A stretch of 64,000 bases of DNA from assembly GCA_028867675.1 (NCBI GenBank), contig JAGWGA010000002.1, positions 28,097-92,096 of the forward strand, read 5' to 3'. How positions within the stretch are numbered: the first letter of the stretch is position 1; each line of letters opens with the position of its first letter. Below are positions 28,575-29,268 of the stretch, one piece after another. Made by a program: the position numbers and the translations under genes. The DNA is from Nitrososphaerota archaeon. Lineage in GTDB: Archaea > Thermoproteota > Nitrososphaeria > Nitrososphaerales > Nitrosopumilaceae. The notes beneath the pieces are model-generated. The model was given only the letters and a program-made list of their open reading frames with translations. It was not told the origin of the DNA and searched no databases.

Positions 28575-28904
28575 ATGACAAAGCAGATAACTCTAGATGG
28601 TTGGCTCATATCACACTTTACCATTTTATTAAAAAAGGCATCATCTCATGTTACAAAGACCAAGATACCGCTTGTACTATACCGAAATACTTTAGAGGAA
28701 GAGGAAGAAGCATATCAAGAAACAGTCTGTACTATTACTGACGGATACATCATAGTCCAAGTAATAACATCAGGTGGCGGAGTAGTTCCAAGTTTTCAAC
28801 AGCAGTTTGTCTTTACACTGGATGAATTTCCTTCTTGGCTTATGCGAAAAAGTAAGGATTTGTTCCTACAATGTGTTGACTTGCTAGAAGAACAATTCAG
28901 CTAG
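28575..28904 (+). CDS. Hypothetical protein
   Basis: A 109-residue protein with no recognised domain. The first third looks helical (WLISHFTILLKKASSH), an acidic loop EEEEEAYQET follows, and then strands (YIIVQVITSGGGVV). The gene is 46 bases after ileS on the same strand, with its own AT-rich leader. No signal peptide is seen. Confidence 0.5.
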   Translation: MTKQITLDGWLISHFTILLKKASSHVTKTKIPLVLYRNTLEEEEEAYQETVCTITDGYIIVQVITSGGGVVPSFQQQFVFTLDEFPSWLMRKSKDLFLQCVDLLEEQFS

Positions 28905-28954
28905 TCATTTTGCCCCAATTATATCATAAAATTTTATTTTTGTGACAAGGAGCC

Positions 28955-28963
28955 TTAAAAATA
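28955..28963 (+). promoter_or_regulatory. TATA box for the candidate ncRNA
   Basis: TTAAAAATA preceded by GAGCC lies about 25 bases before the start of the GC-rich element. No ORF of useful length follows within 300 bases. Confidence 0.4.
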
Positions 28964-28979
28964 TCTAAGATGAATCGGA

Positions 28980-29042
28980 TTTTAGTTTTGGGCCGGGCCA
29001 GGCAAGAGGGTGTCATTTGACACTCGGTTCCGACCCAAAACA
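28980..29042 (+). ncRNA. Candidate structured ncRNA: GC-rich imperfect hairpin
   Basis: The stretch is strikingly GC-rich in a genome that is otherwise about one-third G+C. TTTTGGG (28986-28992) pairs with CCCAAAA (29034-29040), CGG with CCG inside it, and GTGTC with GACAC (29010-29023) forms an apical stem with an ATTT loop. ACA follows the outer stem after two bases, as in H/ACA guide RNAs, but I cannot confirm a kink-turn or a target. No coding frame explains it. Its family is unknown to me. Confidence 0.6.
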
Positions 29043-29064
29043 TTCGTATTTTAGTTTTTACGAA
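29043..29064 (+). terminator. Hairpin/T-rich terminator after the ncRNA
   Basis: TTCGTA and TACGAA form a 6-base-pair inverted repeat around a T-rich loop (TTTTAGTTTT), right after the ncRNA candidate. The loop repeats TTTTAGTTTT, which also occurs at 28980-28989 just before the GC-rich hairpin. This is likely the 3' boundary of a short transcript. Confidence 0.45.
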
Positions 29065-29268
29065 ACCTGTTGACATTCAAAGATAAAGCATAATTGTATT
29101 ATGTAGATATTCATTAAAGAAACAATACCTACAAAATCTGTAAAATCACACTTGAAGAATTAACGAATTGATTTGCGATCAAAAATAGATTTGATTGAAG
29201 ATTTGTGAATTTGAGTGACAAAAAAGACATCAAACAGATTATAAAGACCTTAAAAATGAAAAATCACA
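29065..29268. other. AT-rich leader before sucC; no gene seen
   Basis: About 200 bases of AT-rich sequence separate the ncRNA candidate from sucC. I see no ORF, tRNA or strong inverted repeat. A TATA-like TTATAAAG near 29240 is placed for the sucC ATG at 29269. Confidence 0.5.

Follow-up and report, generated by a model that had tools for sequence, protein, structure and literature searches.

Small RNAs transcribed independently from archaeal intergenic regions are, as a kind, structured, restricted to particular lineages and furnished with a TATA promoter of their own. Also relevant to any short archaeal hairpin RNA are the H/ACA guides, for which the published rules give a lower stem of 7-9 bp, a distance of 14-16 nt from the upper stem to the ANA box, and a K-turn or K-loop 8-11 bp above the internal loop (PMC4652768). 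Here we describe a hairpin in a 64,000-nucleotide stretch of DNA (the window) from a Nitrosotalea-type ammonia-oxidising archaeon, whose sucC has relatives at 96% protein identity that include N. devanaterra and N. bavarica. Nitrosotalea is a group important in acid-soil nitrification, a complete genome exists for N. devanaterra, and a literature search found no paper on Nitrosotalea non-coding RNA or sRNA. We hold it very probable that the element is a genuine structured RNA gene.

Results

Genomic setting and fold

The gene order at the locus is ileS, a 109-aa orphan ORF (orf109, 28575-28904), a gap of 364 bases (28905-29268), sucC (from 29269) and sucD. A sequence-only reading of the window had described this gap as lacking any coding frame, and indeed no ORF of at least 60 aa occurs on either strand; the TATA-like sequence TTAAAAATA is likewise found where that reading had placed a TATA box. 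No tRNA was found in the gap and no Rfam family reached its gathering threshold there, while relaxed thresholds gave chance-level matches only, elsewhere in the gap. At 58%, the G+C content of the hairpin exceeds that of the gap (31%) and of the window as a whole (36%). Copies of TTTTAGTTTT flank it on both sides as had been remarked, but they are not conserved among relatives and are therefore probably incidental.

The core reads GTTTTGGG-C-CGG-GCC-(AGGCAAGA)-GGGTGTC-ATTT-GACACTC-GGT-T-CCG-A-CCCAAAAC, with the bulge in parentheses. The outer stem enclosing an inner stem that had been proposed was recovered as a lower stem of 8 bp (GTTTTGGG/CCCAAAAC), a C-A mismatch above it, and 6 inner pairs with one bulged T; above these come the 8-nt bulge, a 7-bp upper stem and an ATTT loop. 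The earlier description of a structured GC-rich segment is upheld by folding, in that the 90-nt segment gives -31.2 kcal/mol (z -3.95), a value equalled in 0 of 200 shuffles, and the hairpin alone gives a z of -2.97; the relatives support the structure beyond chance.

Table 1. Positions of the features discussed (window coordinates unless a genome or locus is named)
Feature	Position	Strand	Remarks
Imperfect 26-bp AT dyad TATCATAAAATTTTATTTTTGTGACA, likely operator or upstream promoter element	28922-28947	+	conserved in both clades
TATA box TTAAAAATA of the RNA gene	28955-28963	+	small variants in all distinct copies
Structured RNA core	28985-29041	+	folding, covariance model, covariation; predicted 5' end 28985
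Bulge AGGCAAGA, 8 nt, proposed functional contact site	29000-29007	+	GGCAAGA invariant, flanking helices vary
ACA, suggested H/ACA box	29040-29042	+	ACG or ACT in 7 of 26 distinct relatives
Weak AT-rich stem, once read as terminator	29043-29064	+	not significant
Distal motif CATAATTGTATTATG (ACTRGTATAATTRCATTATG in relatives), part of the RNA unit	29089-29103	+	conserved in both clades
Separate TATA box TTATAAAG adjoining the sucC start	29239-29246	+	kept also in RNA-less genomes, e.g. L023, L024, L026
RNA-B	G000:C213:55533-55716 (L179); L163:665-855; G058:C1:238015-238208		
Orphan family (121-128 aa) members	L038:1101-1469; L040:1080-1466; L034:71-436	-	

Distribution and covariation

Relatives were sought by DNA, by sucC protein and with a covariance model (CM R1), which finds the RNA in its own genome at 72.8 bits (E 3.5e-17). 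The RNA is present in 25 of 37 Nitrosotalea genomes, including 15 of the 19 of good quality, as a single copy in each and at 66-89 bits; the two copies in G113 lie on separate contigs, each with its own sucC, so this is probably a mixed assembly. A class-wide search of 400 genomes with the model returned only two weak matches outside the genus (E 0.06 and 0.08), which were judged chance, the one inspected resembling coding sequence; on these sequence searches the RNA appears specific to the genus Nitrosotalea, nothing convincing having been found elsewhere in the class. Within the genus it is missing from the near-related N. bavarica group and from G079, G085, G091 and G103, which are 96-99% complete, and its absence from several near-relatives indicates that it is dispensable. 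The sucC tree, some of whose forks are weakly supported, is compatible with a single early origin of the RNA, one inversion and several losses.

Some of the RNA-less gaps retain traces of interest. Upstream of sucC in L043 and L044 the AT dyad is kept and the hairpin is gone (L043 also has a TATA-like box), the state that losing the RNA core would be expected to leave. In L046 and L042 the gap from orf109 to sucC contains another, unlike hairpin, located in the 400 bases upstream of position 2001; in L046 it reads GAAACTGTGGGC..GGCCTACAGTTTC, with a T-run after it on the inverted strand. This may possibly be a replaced or strongly diverged RNA.

The sequence-only reading had named a lack of compensatory changes among relatives as one half of what would count against an RNA here; such changes were found, and the stems covary. 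In 22 distinct cores, trimmed, realigned and fitted to the model, 97.5% of pair cells are paired and 4 pairs are altered on both sides, values for pairing and double change reached by 0-1 of 500 shuffles, and sliding the partner columns by one lowers the pairing to about 47-50%. An independent MAFFT alignment is similar (95.9% paired, 5 pairs changed on both sides), a first MAFFT alignment having contained shifted rows that caused RNAalifold to miss the lower stem. Folded singly, the sequences of nearly every lineage give the same architecture.

The invariant bulge

GGCAAGA is identical in all 33 aligned covariance-model matches, whereas the helices on both sides of it vary. The bulge is of 8 nt (AGGCAAGA) or, in most of clade 2, of 9 nt (AUGGCAAGA), and this difference in length speaks against a coding explanation. 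As RNA, A(U)GGCAAGA is closed above by a covarying stem of 7-8 bp and below by the inner helix GRCC/GGUY, which is weakly supported since it varies on one side only. To our knowledge an invariant GGCAAGA bulge is not a feature of any known sRNA.

As to whether a trans-acting RNA makes its contact through this bulge, we consider the chances about even. A special case of such action would be antisense repression of a single mRNA, with GGCAAGA as the seed of the small RNA. An exposed, invariant, G/A-rich bulge of 7-8 nt would suit this role and UCUUGCC-type sites are common in these genomes, but short seeds are not resolvable from sequence alone, and the extended complement to the bulge strand is not conserved. 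Exact extended complements of a genome's own bulge strand occur nowhere else in G000, G067 and G123, and the matches in G008, G058 and G044 fall in unrelated genes, bar one orthologous pair and the RNA-B described below. The one orthologous site common to G008 and G058 lies within coding sequence and was rejected as a target, and among rRNA and tRNA an exact UCUUGCC occurs only in tRNA-Phe (7 bp), about the chance expectation. We regard repression of a single mRNA as unlikely.

Promoter, orientation and transcript ends

From the TATA centre to the first hairpin base, a G, there are 25-26 nt in 25 of 26 distinct copies, the spacer sequence itself differing; the exception (L016/L052) is an assembly with sucC and sucD matches in pieces. 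This spacing predicts that transcription starts at the first base of the hairpin. Upstream, the perfect form of the dyad (TATCAYRA-N8-11-TYRTGATA) is confined to this locus in G008, G044 and G067, and G123 has one additional match; a looser form has one match in the window against 0.11 expected.

In the window's clade (clade 1) the RNA unit points toward sucC. Clade 2 has the whole of it, from dyad and TATA box to hairpin and distal motif, turned round with respect to sucC and orf109, and there a 122-aa orphan gene usually follows about 180 nt downstream of the RNA. This gene belongs to an orphan family of 121-128 aa that adjoins the RNA in clade 2 and has several paralogues per Nitrosotalea genome; a Pfam search of the orphan proteins beside the RNA gave no match.

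These arrangements bear on whether the hairpin instead acts in cis, as a leader or riboswitch that would belong to sucC in clade 1 and to the orphan gene in clade 2. In the window it stands 230 nt before sucC on the same strand, and in clade 2 it stands on the same strand as the conserved 122-aa gene that it precedes. The downstream genes nevertheless differ between the clades, L031 and L103 have the inverted RNA unit with no gene downstream, and in many clade 2 copies a T-run after the distal motif comes before the gene. Nor are orientation and position before sucC fixed, the RNA being inverted in clade 2 and absent from other genomes, and sucC retains a TATA box of its own beside its start whether or not the genome has the RNA. 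The inversion indicates that the RNA is not a sucC leader, and a leader function of either kind appears improbable. Taken together, promoter geometry, orientation and the separate sucC promoter indicate that the RNA is a unit of its own; as would be expected of an autonomous sRNA, it has a promoter at fixed distance and a conserved structure independent of its neighbours. The short non-coding RNA proposed by the sequence-only reading is therefore well supported by covariation, by the fixed spacing of TATA box and hairpin, and by an orientation independent of neighbouring genes.

Alternatively, inversion between clades and loss in several lineages might be taken to mark a DNA element, such as a mobile or recombination hairpin. 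Against this, the unit is single-copy per genome and in the same gap, its TATA spacing is fixed, G-U is a common pair type among those retained, as RNA predicts, and a degenerate-pattern search of viral contigs gave no match, so that we view a DNA element as highly improbable.

The T-rich hairpin that had been read as a terminator did not hold up: an equal stem forms in 83 of 100 shuffled segments, and the stem is not consistently kept among relatives. The distal motif, by contrast, is conserved, being kept also in L031 and in clade 1, where the 122-aa gene is absent. After it many clade 2 copies have a T-run, a possible 3' end, and clade 1 has none. Conservation of the motif together with this T-run suggests that the transcript may be about 115 nt long.

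Comparison with H/ACA guides

The earlier reading had also suggested an H/ACA guide, and we considered whether the RNA is an H/ACA or H/ACA-like pseudouridine guide, in which the strands beside the upper stem would pair with a target and Cbf5 would hold the ACA. The size of the single hairpin and the predicted start at its base agree with this idea, the lower stem of 7-11 bp fits the published length, and from the upper stem to the ACA there are 14-15 nt in 26 of 26 distinct copies. The ACA reported to follow the outer stem is present, but its first two bases lie within the lower stem, and the box reads ACG in 6 and ACT in 1 of the 26 distinct copies; H/ACA-like RNAs with degenerate boxes are, on the other side, known in Pyrobaculum. 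No K-turn or K-loop was seen in the 33 aligned copies or in the folds, which have an upper stem of 7-8 bp, loops of 3-4 nt and no G-A pairs.

The proposed check for pairing of the internal loop with rRNA was run against SSU, LSU and 45 tRNA predictions, with targets from one relative's genome; rRNA was taken from G008 and G058 because that of the window's own genome is absent from its assembly. Two-part guide-target matches were no better than those of shuffled guides in three of four lineages (the best were equalled by 45, 96 and 53 of 200 shuffles). The window's own match is better, equalled by 5 of 200, but is much weaker in other lineages, leaving no convincing match shared across them. 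With no K-turn or K-loop, a broken ANA in 7 of 26 copies and no convincing target, the suggestion is not supported and a guide of this class appears improbable; guide-like action without a K-turn, on some other target, is conceivable.

A second RNA candidate

The genus has a second conserved, unannotated intergenic RNA candidate of about 190 nt, RNA-B, which carries GGCCAGGCAAG and has no Rfam match. It is situated downstream of a gene paralogous to the 122-aa orphan, has a strong terminator (GGAGAGG..CCTCTCC plus a T-run), and is matched in 27 of 37 genus genomes at E up to 0.01, near-full in 16; the weakest matches are probably chance. The string CCAGGCAAG is common to RNA-B and the hairpin RNA and has the same sense in both, and GGCAAG is kept in most RNA-B copies, not in G008. 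Because a search for this string is what uncovered RNA-B, the sharing may be coincidental. That the two RNAs are outputs of one regulatory system, with a common partner recognising GGCAAG, strikes us as unlikely.

Discussion

Our preferred explanation, which we rate as fairly probable, is that the locus is a Nitrosotalea-specific, single-copy small RNA gene with its own promoter, acting in trans through contact of the GGCAAGA bulge with a partner RNA or protein. The archaeal promoter would direct transcription from position 28985, and the RNA would be about 57-62 nt long if it ended after the hairpin or reach the greater length estimated above if it extended to the distal motif. It folds as one rigid hairpin with A(U)GGCAAGA as its sole large unpaired element, and would, most likely in trans, expose this bulge to a single conserved partner, which would be a protein or a short site on an RNA. 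By analogy, RNAs that offer a short loop to a partner are similar to this rigid hairpin with its one invariant bulge. What the locus provides is an RNA family backed by covariation, for which the promoter is defined, the start site is probable and one invariant site can be put to the test.

With regard to known systems, the RNA is like archaeal H/ACA guides in that it consists of one hairpin, about 60 nt long and with an internal loop, and in most copies has an ACA 14-15 nt from the upper stem. It is unlike them in having no K-turn or K-loop, no maintained ANA and no supported target, and in having a one-sided bulge closed by GRCC/GGUY. Unlike the known archaeal intergenic sRNAs, its sequence and fold match no Rfam family; it is like the independently transcribed members of that group in having its own TATA promoter within the gap, in being structured and in being restricted to one lineage.
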